From the NCBI GenBank assembly GCA_011090425.1, contig PHGD01000004.1, positions 1-64,000 on the forward strand: a stretch of 64,000 bases of DNA. The letters are read 5' to 3'. The translations under genes were made by a program, and so were the position numbers. How positions within the stretch are numbered: position 1 is the first letter of the stretch; every line of letters begins with the position of its first letter. This document shows positions 40,600 to 48,427 of this stretch, in pieces. Source of the DNA: Nitrospira sp. LK70. GTDB lineage: Bacteria; Nitrospirota; Nitrospiria; Nitrospirales; Nitrospiraceae. Under the pieces are notes generated by a model that saw only the letters and a program-made list of their open reading frames with translations, had not been told where the DNA came from and searched no databases.

Positions 40600-41742
40600 A
40601 TGGCCCGTATCCTGATTATTTCCGGTGAAGCCTCCGGCGACCTTCACGGAGCCAATCTTGCCAAAGCGCTGAAAGCGCGCGATCCTCAGGTCTCGCTGGC
40701 AGGAATCGGTGGCCGCGCGATGGAGGCGGCCGGTGTGCGGTTGGTGGAGGAAATGGGGCGATTTGACGTCATCGGGATGGTCGGTCCCTTCGTCTTGCTG
40801 TCGATCATACGGCGGTTGATCACGATGCGGCGGTTATTCCGATCAAAACAATGGGACACGGTGGTGTTTATCGATCATCCGGGACTCAATATGCGCCTTG
40901 CATATTTTGCCAAGGCGGCCGGCTTGCGGGTGGTGTACTATATCGCGCCACAGATTTGGGCCTGGGCGCCTTGGCGGATTCGTTGGATCAAACAGCGTGT
41001 CGATCACGTCTTGGTCATACTTCCGTTTGAGAAGTCCCTCTACGACAAAGCAGGTGTACGCTGTACGTTTGTCGGCCATCCCATATTGGATGCGGTCGCA
41101 GGCCGCTACGATCGGAGGGAGCTACGCGGCACATTCGGTTTCTCCGATGACGAACGAGTGATTGCCTTGTTGCCGGGGAGTCGGCCTCATGAGGTACAAG
41201 TATTGCTGCCGATCCTCATCGAGGCTGTAGAGAAATTGGCGCGCAGGGAACCAAAAACGAAGTTTATCCTGGCGCAGGCCTCCACCATACAGGATACTCT
41301 GTTGCAGCCTCTCCTGAGCCGAAGCCCCGTTCCTATCGCGCTGGTAAAGGAGCAGGCCGCGGAAGTGATGGCCTTGTCGGACCTTGTGCTGGTGGCTTCT
41401 GGTACGGCCACGCTGCAAGCGGCTGTGGTCGGCACTCCGATGGTGTTGTTCTATCGAACCACACCCCTGACCTATTGGTTTGCGAATGTGGTGATTCGTT
41501 TCGTCATTCGAGTCAAATGGATCGGGCTTGTCAATCTGGTGGCCGGCCGGACGATCGTGCCGGAGCTGATCCAATCGACTGCGACGGGGCAACGATTGTA
41601 TGAAGAGGCGCGTCGGATCTTAGACGATCGACCCGGATACGACGAGATGAAACGGGAGCTGGCAAAGGTTCGGGCCGCTTTGGGTGAACCGGGTGCGTCA
41701 GCCAGAGCCGCGGAGGTGGTGTTGACGGCATGTCAGGCTTAG
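40600..41742 (+). CDS. lpxB: Lipid-A-disaccharide synthase LpxB
   Basis: LpxB joins lipid X and UDP-diacylglucosamine into the lipid A disaccharide (GT19). The 380 residues begin ILIISGEASGDLHGANLAKA. GIGGRAMEAAGVRLVEEM, YYIAPQIWAWAPWRI, TFVGHPILDAV and LLPGSRPHEVQ follow, all core LpxB motifs, then VASGTATLQAAVVGTPMVL near the C-terminus. Its end overlaps the msbA start by 13 bases. Confidence 0.96.
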   Translation: MARILIISGEASGDLHGANLAKALKARDPQVSLAGIGGRAMEAAGVRLVEEMGRFDVIGMVGPFVLLSIIRRLITMRRLFRSKQWDTVVFIDHPGLNMRLAYFAKAAGLRVVYYIAPQIWAWAPWRIRWIKQRVDHVLVILPFEKSLYDKAGVRCTFVGHPILDAVAGRYDRRELRGTFGFSDDERVIALLPGSRPHEVQVLLPILIEAVEKLARREPKTKFILAQASTIQDTLLQPLLSRSPVPIALVKEQAAEVMALSDLVLVASGTATLQAAVVGTPMVLFYRTTPLTYWFANVVIRFVIRVKWIGLVNLVAGRTIVPELIQSTATGQRLYEEARRILDDRPGYDEMKRELAKVRAALGEPGASARAAEVVLTACQA

Positions 41743-43475
41743 AGCGATTCAAGCGGTTGATGAGTTATGTGAAGCCGTACCGTATGCGGTTCGTGGCAGC
41801 CTTCGTCTGCTCAGGTCTCGTGGCGCTGCTCAGCGGGGCCTATGCCTGGCTTGCACGCCCGGTTTTGGACGATATCTTCATCCAGAAAAACGAACAGATG
41901 TTGCTGGTGCTCCCCCTGGCGCTCCTGGCGGTCGCGACGCTCAAGGCCCTGTTCAGCTACGGCGTGGGATATTTGATGGCCTATGTCGGCAACGGGGTCG
42001 TGGCGGACATTCGACAGCAATTGTTCCAGCAGCTCATGCGGCTGTCCGTCGGGTTCCATGACGCCAATACATCGGGACGCCTGGTCTCGCGGGTCGTGAA
42101 CGATGTGGGGATGATGGCAAATGCCGCATCGAGCGTCGTCAAGGATATTTTTCAGAACGGGCTCACGTTTCTGGCGATGGTCGGCGTCATCATCTATCAG
42201 AATTGGAGGTTGGCGGCGATCTCTCTGGTCGTGATCCCGCTGTCGGCACTGACGATGGTGAGGGTGGGGAAACGATTGAAACGATTGGCGACCAGCGGAC
42301 AGGAGCAAATGGGGGATATGGCTTCGACCCTCCAGGAAACTTTCGCCGGTATCCGGGTCGTGAAAGCGTTCGGGCGAGAGGAGGCGGAGGCTGAACGATT
42401 CAAGGAACGAAACCAGATCTTTCTCTCGACCACGTTGAAGTCCAATCAGGTTTGGTCGCTCGGCCACTCCCACATGGAAATCATCGGAGTGATCGGTGTC
42501 GCGACCATTATTTGGTATGGAGGCTATCTGGTTATTCATGAGGCGATGACGCCCGGAGCGTTTTTCTCGTTCCTGGCGGCGATGTTTATGGCCTATACCC
42601 CGATCAAAAAACTATCGGGCGCCAACAATTTGATTCAACAGGCGCTGGCGGCGGCTGAACGGGTCTTCGACGTGTTGGACTTGGAAACCGAGCAGTCTCA
42701 GAATCTCGGCAGGGTCCCCTTGGCGGGGATGAAACGAGCCATTGAATTTCAAGGCGTCTCCCTGCGGTATGAGAATCAGACCGCCCCGGCTCTGACCGAT
42801 GTGGATCTCACGATTAAGCCCGGCGAAGTGATTGCGCTCGTCGGCAGCAGCGGGAGTGGAAAGACCACATTGGTCAGTTTGCTGCCGCGTTTCTATGAAC
42901 CGACCGTGGGAGGCATTTACATAGACGGGATTCCCTTGACCTCATACGAGTTACAATCGCTGAGGGCCCATATCGGAATCGTTTCGCAAGAAATCGTCTT
43001 GTTCGATGATACCGTCCGAAGCAACATCGCGTTCGGGAGGACCGGCGCCGGCCAGGCCGACGTCGAGCAGGCGGCGAGATCGGCCTATGCACACGACTTT
43101 ATTCTCCGCTTGCCGGAAGGATACGATACGATCATCGGGGAACGCGGTCTCAAGCTGTCGGGCGGCGAGCGGCAACGTCTGGCGATCGCTCGAGCCATTC
43201 TTCGTGACCCGCCGCTTCTGATCCTCGATGAAGCGACATCGGCACTCGACACCGAGTCTGAACGGATCGTGCAGTTGGCTTTGGGCAATTTGATGAAGAA
43301 TCGAACCACCCTGGTGATTGCACATCGGCTCTCGACCATTCAAAACGCGGATCGAATCATCGTGTTGGATCGAGGAACTATCGTTGAAATGGGCTCTCAT
43401 GAGGAACTACTTCGGCAGGGAGGGGTCTACCATCGCCTGCATGCCATGCAATTTCAGGATGTGACCAATGTGTGA
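41730..43475 (+). CDS. msbA: Lipid A export ABC transporter MsbA
   Basis: MsbA flips lipid A-core across the inner membrane. The 581 residues hold six transmembrane helices with an intracellular coupling region (about 1-320). The nucleotide-binding domain has Walker A GSSGSGKTT, Q-loop GIVSQEIVLFDD, signature LSGGERQRLAIARAI and Walker B LLILDEATSALD. It lies directly after lpxB and before an acyltransferase, waaA and lpxK, which strongly supports lipid A as substrate. Confidence 0.94.
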   Translation: MSGLERFKRLMSYVKPYRMRFVAAFVCSGLVALLSGAYAWLARPVLDDIFIQKNEQMLLVLPLALLAVATLKALFSYGVGYLMAYVGNGVVADIRQQLFQQLMRLSVGFHDANTSGRLVSRVVNDVGMMANAASSVVKDIFQNGLTFLAMVGVIIYQNWRLAAISLVVIPLSALTMVRVGKRLKRLATSGQEQMGDMASTLQETFAGIRVVKAFGREEAEAERFKERNQIFLSTTLKSNQVWSLGHSHMEIIGVIGVATIIWYGGYLVIHEAMTPGAFFSFLAAMFMAYTPIKKLSGANNLIQQALAAAERVFDVLDLETEQSQNLGRVPLAGMKRAIEFQGVSLRYENQTAPALTDVDLTIKPGEVIALVGSSGSGKTTLVSLLPRFYEPTVGGIYIDGIPLTSYELQSLRAHIGIVSQEIVLFDDTVRSNIAFGRTGAGQADVEQAARSAYAHDFILRLPEGYDTIIGERGLKLSGGERQRLAIARAILRDPPLLILDEATSALDTESERIVQLALGNLMKNRTTLVIAHRLSTIQNADRIIVLDRGTIVEMGSHEELLRQGGVYHRLHAMQFQDVTNV

Positions 43476-43489
43476 AGATGTGAGGGGGT

Positions 43490-44193
43490 GTGGGAGTGCC
43501 GACTGCTGAGCATGGAAAGGGTCTGAAGAAGCGCGCCGAACAGTGGGTGAAATTCTCTCTGCTGCCGCCGGTCTGTGCCGCGGTCATTCGCGCTGTCGCA
43601 TGGTCGATGCGCTGGGACACTCGCGGTCACGAAGCCCTCGATGGGTTGTACCGAGAAGGACGAAACGTCATTTTCGCGTTTTGGCATGCCCAACAGTTGA
43701 TGACTCCGATCGGTTATCGAGGAAGAGGTTTGCACGTGCTCATCAGCCGACATGGAGACGGGGAAATCATCGCTCGCATCGTTGCGAGGTTTGGCCACGA
43801 AGCGGTTCGTGGGTCGAGCACGCGCGGAGGGGCCGGAGCCCTTCGCGCCTTGATTAAGCTTGCACGGTCCGGTCGGGATCTCGTGGTGACTCCCGATGGC
43901 CCCAAGGGGCCGCGTCACGTCGCAAAGCCGGGAGTGATTCATCTGGCCAAAGCGACAGGCCTTCCCATCGTGCCGGCTGCCATTGCCTGTTCAAAAAAAA
44001 ACTCTTTGCGAGCTGGGATCGCTACATGGTCCCATACCCGTTTTCCAGAGGCCTCTTTCTGTATGGGAATCCGCTCTGGATCCCGCGCGAAGCCGATGAA
44101 GCCTCGCTCGAGGCGGCTCGCCTGGAGCTTGAGACGATCCTCAATCGTCTGACGGATCAAGCGGAAGCATTGGTCAATGCAGGGCGTGACTAG
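43490..44193 (+). pseudogene. DUF374 (lysophospholipid acyltransferase-like), frame broken at an A9 run
   Basis: This LPLAT-family protein is often encoded between msbA and waaA. GTG 43490 opens a frame with FAFWHAQQLM, RHGDGEIIARIVARFGHEAV, GSSTRGGAGALRAL and VTPDGPKGPRHVAKPG, all DUF374 motifs. After residue 168 it runs through nine A residues (43993-44001) into unrelated, Arg/Ser-rich sequence ending at 44152. The -1 frame, which re-reads one A, continues as LFASWDRYMVPYPFSRG, then GNPLWIPREADEASLEAARL, to TAG at 44191-44193. That is the normal family C-terminus. A sequencing error, a true mutation, or slippage on A9 could explain this. It is recorded as broken pending a check. Confidence 0.8.
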
Positions 44194-44285: not shown

Positions 44286-45623
44286 ATGTGGAAGCTTCTC
44301 TATAACATCGGCCTTCTTCTTGCGACCCCTGTGATTGTGGGCGTCCTCCTGGCCAAGCCACGTTGCAGGCCGGGGTTTTTCCAGCGGATGGGCCGGCAGG
44401 TCCACTCTCCAGACGGCAGTGGATCGCCGCAGCCGGTTATTTGGGTGCACGCAGTGTCGCTCGGAGAAGTGGTGGCGGCAGCGCCCCTCGTGAAGGCACT
44501 GCACGAGCGCCATCCCGAGTTTCACTACATCGTGACGACGGTGACCGAGACCGGACGTGAGGCGGTCGAACAACGTTTAGGGGGCATCGCCGAACATCGA
44601 TACGCTCCGCTGGATTTTCCCTGGGCCGTGACAAATGTAGTTCGGCGCCTGCGTCCAATGCTCTATCTGTTCGTCGAGACCGAAATATGGCCGAACTTAC
44701 TGTGGACCTTACGAGATCAGGATGTGCCCTCTGTATTGGTGAATGGGCGGCTGTCTTCCCGGTCCTTTCGCCGTCAGGACTTGCCCATGATTCGGTCCTT
44801 CTATCGCTCCGTGCTTCGGACATTGACGCTCTGCCTGATGCAAACCGATCGGGATGGGGATCGTCTGGTTGCATTGGGGGCCGACCCGACGCGGGTTCAC
44901 GTGACCGGCAATATCAAGTTTGATCAACCGCTGCCGGACGTTCGATCGGATGAGTTGCTCCGCCGAGACTTCGGGATCGATGAACAGGAACAGTTGATTC
45001 TCGCCGGCAGTACGCATCCCGGCGAAGAGGAGCTGCTGGTCTCGGCTTACCGACAGATCGTGAAGACCTATCCCTCAACGGTGTTGATGTTGGCGCCGCG
45101 CCATATCGAGCGGACGGAACGACTCGAAGCGACGGTTCGAGAAGCCGGATTGGTCGTCCAGCGGAGGAGTCGGATTCGAGAGAAGCAATCCGGGCCACGC
45201 GTGGTCATTTTGGATACCAGAGGAGAGTTGTCTCGCGCCTATCGAGAAGCTGTCGTGGCATTCGTCGGGGGGACTTTGGTTCCGGTGGGTGGGCATAATT
45301 TGTTGGAACCGGCTGTGTGGGGCACACCGGTCATGTTTGGGCCCCATACAGACCACTGTGCGGAGGTCGCGACGCTGTTATCCGAAGCCGGAGGAGGGCG
45401 CCCCGTGACAGGGTTGGAGGATCTGGTTGCTTCGCTTGAAGAATGGTTAGGCCAGCCTGAAGTTCGATATCGGGTAGGCCAGGCTGCAAGGCAGGCGGTG
45501 CTGGACAATCAAGGCGCACTGATACGCAGTCTGGAGTTCATTGAAACCTGTCTCCTTGAGGCTCCTTCGTATTCCGACTCCTGTGTTGCAACGGGGCCGG
45601 GACCTCTTATGGCCAAACAGTAA
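44286..45623 (+). CDS. waaA: 3-deoxy-D-manno-octulosonic acid transferase WaaA (KdtA)
   Basis: WaaA adds Kdo to lipid IVA (GT30). The 445 residues have an N-terminal membrane anchor (LYNIGLLLATPVIVGVLLA). WVHAVSLGEVVAAAPLV, TTVTETGREAVEQR, FVETEIWPNLLW (the acceptor-site Glu) and AGSTHPGEEELLV follow, then GGTLVPVGGHNLLEPAVWG near the C-terminus. It is spaced one base from the lpxK start. No Kdo synthesis genes are in the window. Confidence 0.95.
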   Translation: MWKLLYNIGLLLATPVIVGVLLAKPRCRPGFFQRMGRQVHSPDGSGSPQPVIWVHAVSLGEVVAAAPLVKALHERHPEFHYIVTTVTETGREAVEQRLGGIAEHRYAPLDFPWAVTNVVRRLRPMLYLFVETEIWPNLLWTLRDQDVPSVLVNGRLSSRSFRRQDLPMIRSFYRSVLRTLTLCLMQTDRDGDRLVALGADPTRVHVTGNIKFDQPLPDVRSDELLRRDFGIDEQEQLILAGSTHPGEEELLVSAYRQIVKTYPSTVLMLAPRHIERTERLEATVREAGLVVQRRSRIREKQSGPRVVILDTRGELSRAYREAVVAFVGGTLVPVGGHNLLEPAVWGTPVMFGPHTDHCAEVATLLSEAGGGRPVTGLEDLVASLEEWLGQPEVRYRVGQAARQAVLDNQGALIRSLEFIETCLLEAPSYSDSCVATGPGPLMAKQ

Positions 45624-45624
45624 C

Positions 45625-46716
45625 ATGGCACTCTTGCAGCCTGGACAACCGGTCCGTAAAGGGCTTTACTGGGTTGCTGGGTTGTACGGCTTGATCATCC
45701 GATTTCGGCTGTGGTGCTATCGGAAAGGGTGGCTCAGTACGACGCGGTTACCCTGTCCTGTGGTGAGCGTGGGCAATCTTACGGTGGGGGGGACGGGAAA
45801 AACTCCCATCGTCATTCTCCTGACAGAATGGCTGTCGGCCAAAGGGCGGAAGGTGGCGATCTTGAGTCGGGGATACAAACGGACGAGTAGGGTACGGCAA
45901 CTTCTCGTATCTGATGGTTCTCGAATCTTGGCCGGCCCACTGGAAGCTGGTGATGAGCCATTCCTCATGGCGCAACGTTGTCCCCACGCCATTGTGGCGG
46001 TGGGAGCCGATCGGGTCGCGCTTGGTCGGTGGGTGTTGGATCGGTATCCAGTCGACTGCATTGTTCTAGATGACGGCTTTCAACATCGTGCGCTTCATCG
46101 TGATGTCGATCTTGTGTTGCTGGATGCCACCGATGCTGCAGGACTTGATGCGCTGCTTCCGGCCGGAAGACTGCGGGAACCCTTGGCGGAGCTGAGACGA
46201 GCCAGTGCAGTCGTGATTACCCGTGCCGAATCGTGTCAGGATGTGGCTGCGATCCATGGTCGAATGCGAATGATCTCCTGTCCACCCGAAGACGCCGTGG
46301 AAGTTGTGTTTCGACCGGAGTCCGTCATGTCGCTCGTTGCGGGTGAGCGGCAACCGGTTGAATGGTGCCGAAGAAAAAAAACGTGGTTGGTCAGCGGCAT
46401 AGGGAATAGCCGATCATTTCGTCGATCAGCCGAATCGATGGAGGTTGAGATCCTGGGTGAGACGGCGTTTGAAGATCATCACGGCTATCAGCACAGCGAC
46501 ATTGAGAAGATTCGTGCCAATCTACAGGGCACCGGCGGCGAGATCGTTCTGACGACTGAGAAGGACGGAGGGAAGCTGCTCCCCTTGCTCACCCCAAGCG
46601 ACCCTTGGTGGATGCTTCGCCTTGACACGAAAGTCGTGCGTGGAGAAGAGCGGCTGCACAGGCTAATTGATGGACCGTTACAGGGTGAGAGAGAACAAGT
46701 TGACTCTCGTGTCTAA
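45625..46716 (+). CDS. lpxK: Tetraacyldisaccharide 4'-kinase LpxK
   Basis: LpxK phosphorylates the lipid A disaccharide at C4'. The 363 residues include an N-terminal amphipathic anchor (GLYWVAGLYGLIIRFRLWCY), the P-loop VGNLTVGGTGKTP, VAILSRGYKR, DDGFQHRALHRDVDLVLLDA and a C-terminal TTEKDGGKL. ATG 45625 is chosen; the frame is open from 45541 inside waaA. The waaF-gmhB frame overlaps its 3' end. Confidence 0.94.
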   Translation: MALLQPGQPVRKGLYWVAGLYGLIIRFRLWCYRKGWLSTTRLPCPVVSVGNLTVGGTGKTPIVILLTEWLSAKGRKVAILSRGYKRTSRVRQLLVSDGSRILAGPLEAGDEPFLMAQRCPHAIVAVGADRVALGRWVLDRYPVDCIVLDDGFQHRALHRDVDLVLLDATDAAGLDALLPAGRLREPLAELRRASAVVITRAESCQDVAAIHGRMRMISCPPEDAVEVVFRPESVMSLVAGERQPVEWCRRKKTWLVSGIGNSRSFRRSAESMEVEILGETAFEDHHGYQHSDIEKIRANLQGTGGEIVLTTEKDGGKLLPLLTPSDPWWMLRLDTKVVRGEERLHRLIDGPLQGEREQVDSRV

Positions 46717-48427
46717 GAATTTGCCTCACAAAATCCTGGTGCGGGCGCCGAATTGGATCGGCGACGCCGTCATGTGTGAGCCGGCTGTCCGTGGGCTGCG
46801 GTCTCTGTTCCCTGAAGCCGAGTTGACGATGCTCGCGAGACCTACCATTGCAGAGCTGTTCATCACCCATCCGGGGGTGAATTCCGTGCTGCGGTATGAT
46901 GACAAGGGAGCTCACGCGGGAATGTCGGGAAAGTGGTCGCTCGCCGGTACGTTGCGACGGCATCGCTTCGATTTGGCGGTACTGTTTCAGAACGCGTTTG
47001 AAGCCGCATTCCTTGCGTGGCTCGCCGGCATCCCACGACGATATGGTTATGCAACCGATGGGAGAGTCCTATTTCTGACCGAACCGGTTGCCGTTGCCAA
47101 AGGCCCTGTTCCGGTGCATCAAGTCGAGTACTATTGGAATTTATTGAGACCATTGGGACTGGCTGGCGGAGCCATTCTTCCTACGCTGCTCGTTTCGGCA
47201 GACGAGGGTCGAACGGTCGATGTACGGCTTGCCGCGAGCGGTATCTGCTCGTCGGACATCATTATCGGGATCAACCCCGGCTCAATCTATGGCGGCGCCA
47301 AGCGGTGGATGTCGGACCGATTTGCCGAAGTCGCGAAGCGACTTGTGCGACGCTTGGAACAGACTGAGAACGCGCATGTCGCAGTGGTCATCCTTGGAGC
47401 AAAGGGAGAGGAATCGCTGGGGAAGGATATTGCCGCTCAGCTCAGCGGACGATCGGCGGTCTTATCCGGTGCGACGACTATTCGGGAGCTCATGGCGGTG
47501 GTGAAGCGTTGTCGCTTGCTGATTACGAACGATACAGGGCCGATGCATATTGCGGCGGCTTTCGGTGTGCCGGTCGTGGCGGTGTTCGGCCCCACGGATT
47601 GGCGCACCACGGCTCCCTACGGACAAGAACGGTCGATCGTGCGAGAAGCCGTAGACTGTGCGCCCTGCCTTCTCAGGGAATGTCCGATCGATCACCGTTG
47701 CATGACGAGAGTGTCGGTGGAGAAAGTGTATGAGGCTGCGATCCAGGTCGTGAAAGATGAAAAGTTGGAAAGTGAGAGGCCTGAGCGAGGAGGGGCCTCA
47801 ACTCTTGAACATGCTAACGTTCTCGCTCAATTGGCCGGCTACACCATCTTTCTCGATCGAGACGGAACGCTCAACCCCGATCCCGGTTATATCAAGTCCA
47901 CCGATCAGTTTGAGCTGTTCCCAGGGGTGCCTGAGGCGATCGCCAGGCTGAAGCGGGCCGGTGCCAGATTGATCGTCGTCACCAATCAATCGGGGATCGC
48001 GCGTGGATTCTTGACGCACGATGATCTCGATGCCGTACACATGAAGCTACGGGGTCTTCTCGGTGCTGCCGGTGCGTCACTCGATGCGATCTATTTCTGT
48101 CCTCACCATCCTGACGACGGTTGCGACTGTCGAAAGCCGAACCGGGGGATGATCGACCAATCCGTGCGAGAATGGAAGGTGAATCTTGATCGATCCTACC
48201 TGATCGGCGATCACATCCCCGATATCGAGTTGGCGAAGCGCATTGGGGCGCGAAGTGTTTTGGTGACGACTGGAGCCGTTCGCCGACAGGAAGCAGAAAG
48301 GCTGAAAGTCTCAGGGCCGGCACCGGATTGGATCGCGTCATCGTTGACGGAGGCTGTCGATTGGGTCTTGTCCGATGCCGGCCGGTTGTCCGCACAGATC
48401 GGCGAGCGTCAGGGTACGCATCCATGA
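46670..48427 (+). CDS. Fusion of heptosyltransferase II (WaaF-like) and GmhB phosphatase
   Basis: The 585 residues join two heptose-pathway enzymes. Residues about 20-365 are a GT9 heptosyltransferase (ILVRAPNWIGDAVMCEPAV, GINPGSIYGGAKRWMSDRFA, TNDTGPMHIAAAFGVPVVAV, FGPTDWRTTAPYG). Residues about 390-575 are the HAD phosphatase GmhB, with FLDRDGTLNPD (nucleophile Asp), VVTNQSGIARG, a zinc-binding Cys/His cluster (FCPHHPDDGCDCRKP) and YLIGDHIPDIELAK. GmhB dephosphorylates heptose 1,7-bisphosphate and WaaF uses the resulting ADP-heptose. The start is uncertain: ATG 46670 overlaps lpxK by 47 bases, and GTG 46709 is another choice. Confidence 0.93.
   Translation: MDRYRVRENKLTLVSKNLPHKILVRAPNWIGDAVMCEPAVRGLRSLFPEAELTMLARPTIAELFITHPGVNSVLRYDDKGAHAGMSGKWSLAGTLRRHRFDLAVLFQNAFEAAFLAWLAGIPRRYGYATDGRVLFLTEPVAVAKGPVPVHQVEYYWNLLRPLGLAGGAILPTLLVSADEGRTVDVRLAASGICSSDIIIGINPGSIYGGAKRWMSDRFAEVAKRLVRRLEQTENAHVAVVILGAKGEESLGKDIAAQLSGRSAVLSGATTIRELMAVVKRCRLLITNDTGPMHIAAAFGVPVVAVFGPTDWRTTAPYGQERSIVREAVDCAPCLLRECPIDHRCMTRVSVEKVYEAAIQVVKDEKLESERPERGGASTLEHANVLAQLAGYTIFLDRDGTLNPDPGYIKSTDQFELFPGVPEAIARLKRAGARLIVVTNQSGIARGFLTHDDLDAVHMKLRGLLGAAGASLDAIYFCPHHPDDGCDCRKPNRGMIDQSVREWKVNLDRSYLIGDHIPDIELAKRIGARSVLVTTGAVRRQEAERLKVSGPAPDWIASSLTEAVDWVLSDAGRLSAQIGERQGTHP

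Follow-up and report, generated by a model that had tools for sequence, protein, structure and literature searches.

A run of nine A residues divides a gene of the DUF374 family (LpxJ-type lipid A acyltransferases) in Nitrospira sp. LK70. An earlier note on this DNA had left three explanations for it, namely a sequencing error, a recent mutation, and functional frameshifting or slippage, and the question is which of them accounts for the broken gene. We analysed the locus in a stretch of 64,000 nucleotides (the window, meaning the whole of that stretch) and in relatives of the gene. Error and recent mutation did not survive this comparison, since the same A9 and the same break occur in many independent assemblies, and the functional option is strongly supported.

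Gene organization and the motif beyond the run

The run lies exactly at 43993-44001 on the forward strand, inside the DUF374 gene. The zero frame follows the family sequence from the GTG at 43490 to Ser168 (TCA, ending at 43993), beyond which it is non-homologous and stops at 44152. The -1 frame from 43993 encodes KKKLFASWDRYMVPYPFSRGLFLYGNPLWIPREADEASLEAARLELETILNRLTDQAEALVNAGRD, supplies the C-terminal 66 residues of the gene and stops at 44193. The earlier note had described this split, with the family resuming in the -1 frame up to 44193, and its coordinates and frames proved exact. The GTG start is given as listed, and the conserved region begins at about residue 12. The match to PF04028 (DUF374), with 98.3 bits against a cut-off of 26.8, assigns the protein to the LpxJ/DUF374 family. 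The features of the locus are as follows.

40600-41742: lpxB, a neighbour in the gene cluster
41730-43475, forward strand: msbA, lipid A export ABC transporter, adjoining the DUF374 gene upstream
43490-43993, forward strand: zero-frame part of the DUF374/LpxJ-type acyltransferase (N-terminal, residues 1-168), with the FWH, HGDGE and TPDGP motifs
43985-44031, forward strand: flank with lowered synonymous variation in the family, at codons -2, +1, +3, +4 and +8 to +10
43993-44001, forward strand: putative A9 slippage run, zero-frame codons TCA AAA AAA AAC; A9 or A10 in all 178 shifted homologues
43993-44193, forward strand: C-terminal part in the -1 frame, KKKLFASWDRYMVPYPF...NAGRD, with third-position variability in that frame
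44002-44152, forward strand: zero-frame continuation after the run, NSLRAGIATWSHTRFPE..., a tail of variable length in relatives
44014-44019, forward strand: essential Trp-Asp pair, TGG GAT, within the -1-frame part
44014-44034, forward strand: weak possible stem-loop TGGGATCG-CTACA-TGGTCCCA, 12 nt past the run, seen in the own family alone
44286-45623, forward strand: waaA/kdtA, Kdo transferase, adjoining the DUF374 gene downstream
45541-46716: lpxK, a neighbour in the gene cluster
46667-48427: fused heptosyltransferase/HAD protein, a neighbour in the gene cluster

The lpxB-msbA-DUF374-waaA-lpxK neighbourhood forms a gene cluster for lipid A and core. Among testable relatives, msbA adjoins the DUF374 gene in 94 of 97 and waaA in 100 of 101. 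The last feature of the cluster is a single ORF that combines a waaF-like heptosyltransferase with a gmhB-like (D-glycero-D-manno-heptose bisphosphate phosphatase) domain. Neither a second DUF374 gene nor an LpxL/LpxM-family gene (PF03279) was found in the genome, and the PDB yielded no sequence relative.

DUF374 proteins constitute the LpxJ family, and mutants of Rickettsia typhi LpxJ at W60, H61, D86, D132, W172 and D173 lose lipid A acyl transfer (PMC6148475). In the Rickettsia enzyme W172A and D173A abolish activity, and 40 residues separate D132 from W172 (PMC6148475). Compared by residue spacing rather than by sequence alignment, the Nitrospira protein carries the counterparts W65-H66, D90 and D136 at spacings of 1, 24 and 46, against 1, 25 and 46 in R. 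typhi LpxJ. All motifs other than the Trp-Asp pair are located upstream of the run, with SWD just past it. The 119 nt from D136 to the Trp of SWD make 40 codons only after a -1 shift, as in R. typhi LpxJ, so that by spacing the whole set of essential residues (W-H, Asp, Asp, Trp-Asp) is present. Because the Trp-Asp pair lies past the run and attains the 40-codon spacing only when shifted, the unslipped product of 220 residues, which lacks the pair, is probably inactive, and the shifted product should be the active enzyme. Family membership and gene context together predict that the gene is intact and encodes a lipid A late acyltransferase of the LpxJ type (DUF374), which would carry out 3' secondary acylation.

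Conservation of the frame break across Nitrospirota

With 0.27 A9 runs expected by chance in 64 kb, one A9 alone is unremarkable. The whole 4.7 Mb draft genome holds three such sites, the DUF374 site among them; of the other two, one is within an ORF with no obvious frame break and one is near a gene end. The second genomic A9 (L279:1391-2647) is in frame near the start of an ORF that we labelled by eye as a PepSY-like membrane protein (RSKKKFW); slippage is possible there too, though no break in the frame is obvious.

The survey of relatives was made within Nitrospirota. Many of the genomes in it were assembled from metagenomes, and its sister sequences lack independence; some genome-search queries were hand-written consensus-like sequences that served only to locate genes. 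The survey yielded 201 distinct homologues, 178 of which need a -1 shift and none a +1 shift. The earlier note had proposed comparing relatives, and the shifted genes proved to carry A9 in 165 cases and A10 in 13, never a shorter run, all 178 still needing the -1 shift. That 178 distinct homologues combine the run with a compulsory -1 shift indicates conservation far beyond chance. No shift is needed in the other 23 homologues, which are in frame: in 20 the longest run is A4 or shorter, one has A6 (L039) and two retain the run (L349 and L073), so that 21 of the 23 have nothing longer than A6.

The DUF374 gene was found in 75 of 79 genomes of Nitrospira, the genus of the window. Nearly all genes from this genus and from the other genera of its family share TCAAAAAAAAA[C/G] and the -1 requirement. 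Separate assemblies, single-contig genomes among them, supply well over 100 family sequences with the identical A9. A scan with one sequence pattern (TC-A9-S-N8-AGYTGGGAY) through a public set of 84,980 species genomes returned at least 120 stretches, nearly all of them from records named Nitrospira or Nitrospirae. Contigs under other labels, some of them short, also carried Nitrospirota-like versions, namely L139, L163 (Acidimicrobiia MAG), L208 (Gemmatimonadetes MAG) and L190 (Nitrospinota MAG), which are probably mis-binned or mislabelled. Outside the family, a -1 shift at A9 or A10 is needed in two families of the order (f2, f22), three of the class (f24, f27, f28) and four of the phylum (f4, f5, f8, f15), and several of these genes have different flanks (CGC-A9-C, TCT-A9-T, CGT-A9-G, TC-A10-T). 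The sampled genes of f7, f10, f11, f21, f23 and f25 are in frame and lack the run. The frame break is common to at least ten family-level groups. Homopolymers are common sites of sequencing and assembly error, yet the recurrence of one and the same A9 in so many separate assemblies of the family, single-contig genomes included, and in numerous other families makes an error extremely improbable.

A recent frameshift mutation or a decaying pseudogene would be in keeping with a frame that is literally broken, no single frame giving a full-length protein. Against it stand the spread of the break over at least ten family-level groups, the retained position between msbA and waaA, and the constraint on the -1 frame. 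Upstream of the run, the family sequences display zero-frame periodicity, with entropies of 0.37, 0.19 and 1.39 bits at codon positions 1, 2 and 3; downstream, the corresponding values for the -1 frame in 129 family sequences are 0.64, 0.51 and 1.33 bits, with no relaxation of constraint after the lesion. Judged by this periodicity, the -1 frame downstream of the run is under protein-coding constraint, and we give decay or recent mutation hardly any credence. The earlier note had argued that conservation on both sides speaks against old decay, and the downstream frame of the relatives is indeed conserved rather than eroded. The phylum-level depth of the break and the location of the essential Trp-Asp motif past the shift go beyond that note.

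The zero-frame tail behaves differently, with a stop anywhere from 1 to 88 codons past the run in relatives (median 46). On this variation in length and stops we reject a functional zero-frame tail; the tail is not conserved as a product and is probably a non-functional by-product. It also bears on the idea that the gene makes two polypeptides, with the -1 ORF starting at its own ATG (44026) and the halves assembling. That ATG does exist, yet it is situated past the SWD motif, its Met is replaced by Leu, Ile, Val or Gln outside part of the family, and zero-frame stops so widely scattered allow no consistent coupling. Two assembling halves are thus about as improbable as a sequencing error.

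A maximum-likelihood tree of 107 proteins, for which no root was inferred, contains seven changes between the shifted and in-frame states. Three in-frame branches, L039 (within the genus), L297 and f23, sit inside shifted clades; each has lost the run, and this nesting makes reversion the best reading of them. Only four well-supported independent contrasts are available on the tree (three agree, none disagrees and one is a tie), too few for significance, so our argument rests on the breadth of conservation instead of the contrast test.

Two in-frame genes that keep the run, both possibly assembly errors, count against a conserved slip on the run. L349 (G318) is a lone in-frame A10 gene amid A9 relatives, possibly a recent one-base reversion or an assembly error. 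In L073 (G011), as in L213 (Nitrospira sp. UBA6493), A9 is kept and an extra base about 20 nt upstream joins the frames with few residues altered; this base is probably an assembly error and possibly a compensating insertion. L349 is also the single possible on-state of a phase-variable locus, in which replication slippage would alternate A9 (off) and A10 (on) within a population, as might be suspected of a homopolymer in a surface-lipid gene. Such a switch should show both states, yet L349 is the only in-frame gene among the 179 with a run and no other change, against 178 that are shifted, and the 13 A10 genes still require the shift. Phase variation is accordingly very unlikely, if marginally less so than an error.

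Proposed slippage by polymerase or ribosome

Taken together, the comparisons make expression of the gene by way of a conserved frameshift, of one type or the other, highly probable, and they leave little room for all mechanisms other than a polymerase or ribosomal slip. In the mechanism that we propose, the 9-bp A:T hybrid would realign on the A9 run during transcription, and a fraction of the mRNAs would gain one A, with a net change to the -1 frame. Normal translation of the slipped mRNA would produce the full-length enzyme of about 234 residues with its Trp-Asp motif, and the unslipped mRNA would produce the 220-residue protein. The same protein would result from a -1 slip of the ribosome on A_AAA_AAA within this run, and such a slip may contribute.

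A homopolymer of about nine or more is conserved at the frame change in all 178 shifted genes. It starts at codon position 3 in 165 of them (153 A9 and 12 A10) and at position 1 in 13 (12 A9 and 1 A10), so that the frame change is independent of codon phase. The ninth A of the position-3 runs, which is synonymous in the shifted frame, is never G. Elsewhere in the gene two-thirds of the Lys codons are AAG (542 AAG against 268 AAA), and despite this usage the A run is unbroken in every shifted gene. Bacterial RNA polymerase slips efficiently on nine A or T, with a hybrid of 9-10 bp (PMC5009743), and the slippage run of Thermus dnaX likewise has nine residues (PMC3711429). Since the run is never shorter than nine in either codon phase, whereas seven A suffice for the ribosome, we favour polymerase over ribosomal slippage and consider it the probable route by which a conserved slip on A9 yields an active LpxJ-type enzyme, as far as sequence comparison can tell.

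Programmed -1 ribosomal frameshifting is a possible but clearly less likely alternative. Two Lys-tRNAs on AAA AAA would slip back one base on A_AAA_AAA (A_AAA_AAG if the run is followed by G), possibly with help from the local mRNA context, and E. coli dnaX sets the precedent (PMC3711429). An in-phase A_AAA_AAA heptamer, which fits the X_XXY_YYZ form, is present in every shifted gene. The shift direction is constant, which Antonov et al. regard as a sign of ribosomal frameshifting (PMC3711429) and which tells against polymerase slippage, where orthologues shifted in either direction might be found; insertion-biased polymerase slippage could also cause it. Synonymous variation is depressed over codons -2 to +10, the ratio falling to 0.15-0.27 at codons -2, +1, +3 and +4 against about 0.85; families f2 and f22 share this depression in part. 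The own family also has a weak hairpin 12 nt past the run (mean -9.0 kcal/mol against -7.2 kcal/mol for synonymous recodings). Neither the downstream constraint nor the hairpin is obviously needed by a polymerase. On the other side, seven A would be enough for the ribosome, yet the shortest run is nine and its ninth A in position-3 runs never G. Moreover, no stimulator structure recurs in families other than the own one, and the hairpin is about 14 nt from the heptamer, beyond the usual stimulator spacing of 5-9 nt.

Within 43985-44031 the third base is C at codons -2 and +1 and G at +3, and the Ser at +4 is invariably AGY; no single structure accounts for all of this codon constancy. A stem GYUC/GAGY bracketing the run was considered and rejected, as it pairs in the own family without covariation beyond wobble and fails in other families. 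We saw no signal of an upstream hairpin like that of the Roseiflexus IS.

Known systems and biological meaning

The closest parallel to the proposed polymerase slippage is Thermus thermophilus dnaX, which shares a run of nine A (T on the template), an in-gene frame change and two C-terminal outcomes. There, the slip gives gamma, the shorter subunit, and neither product is dispensable, whereas in Nitrospira it would give the full-length enzyme, and the unslipped product lacks an essential motif. The -1 frameshift of E. coli dnaX (A_AAA_AAG) resembles the present case in its A-rich slippery site and direction, but it has only seven slippery bases with Shine-Dalgarno-like and stem-loop stimulators, whereas the run in shifted Nitrospirota genes is always at least nine and no general stimulator was seen. 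As with prfB (release factor 2), the shift is widely conserved and would be needed for a full-length active protein, although that of prfB is a +1 ribosomal shift at a stop codon with autoregulation, and no such feedback is evident in the Nitrospira gene. Transcriptional slippage on a run also restores the product of Shigella spa13 and mxiE and of A/T-run genes in the endosymbionts Buchnera and Blochmannia; those cases concern few lineages, whereas that of Nitrospirota is phylum-wide, in a genome where such runs are otherwise rare. The LpxJ (DUF374) proteins of Rickettsia, Helicobacter and Campylobacter agree with the Nitrospira protein in family, motif order and spacing, and pathway, but their genes are described as ordinary single-frame genes.

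The open-access literature on frameshifting or slippage in Nitrospira, and on slippage in lipid A acyltransferases, gave no earlier report of the DUF374 case, though one may exist elsewhere. The main genome-wide survey includes a single Nitrospirae genome and names a 'Tetraacyldisaccharide kinase/acyltransferase' cluster. Programmed slippage is a known kind of event, of which the DUF374 case appears to be a new and unusually deep example.

Annotation normally drops such a gene as a pseudogene or corrects it as an error, and the polishing of homopolymers in genome assemblies could remove real slippage sites. The reversions without the run offer a natural series for asking why cells retain a slippery site. 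A real slip would mean that nitrite-oxidising and comammox Nitrospira, with many of their relatives, need recoding for an outer-membrane lipid enzyme. This dependence would predate the split of many Nitrospirota families, and few examples of slippage in bacterial housekeeping genes other than dnaX and prfB would be conserved to a comparable depth. More tentatively, the slip may act as a regulator: nucleotide supply, temperature or the state of RNA polymerase would determine the slipped fraction, and the constrained flanks would tune it. In that event the slipped fraction would control the dose of the sole recognised lipid A late acyltransferase and, through it, how far lipid A is acylated across Nitrospirota.
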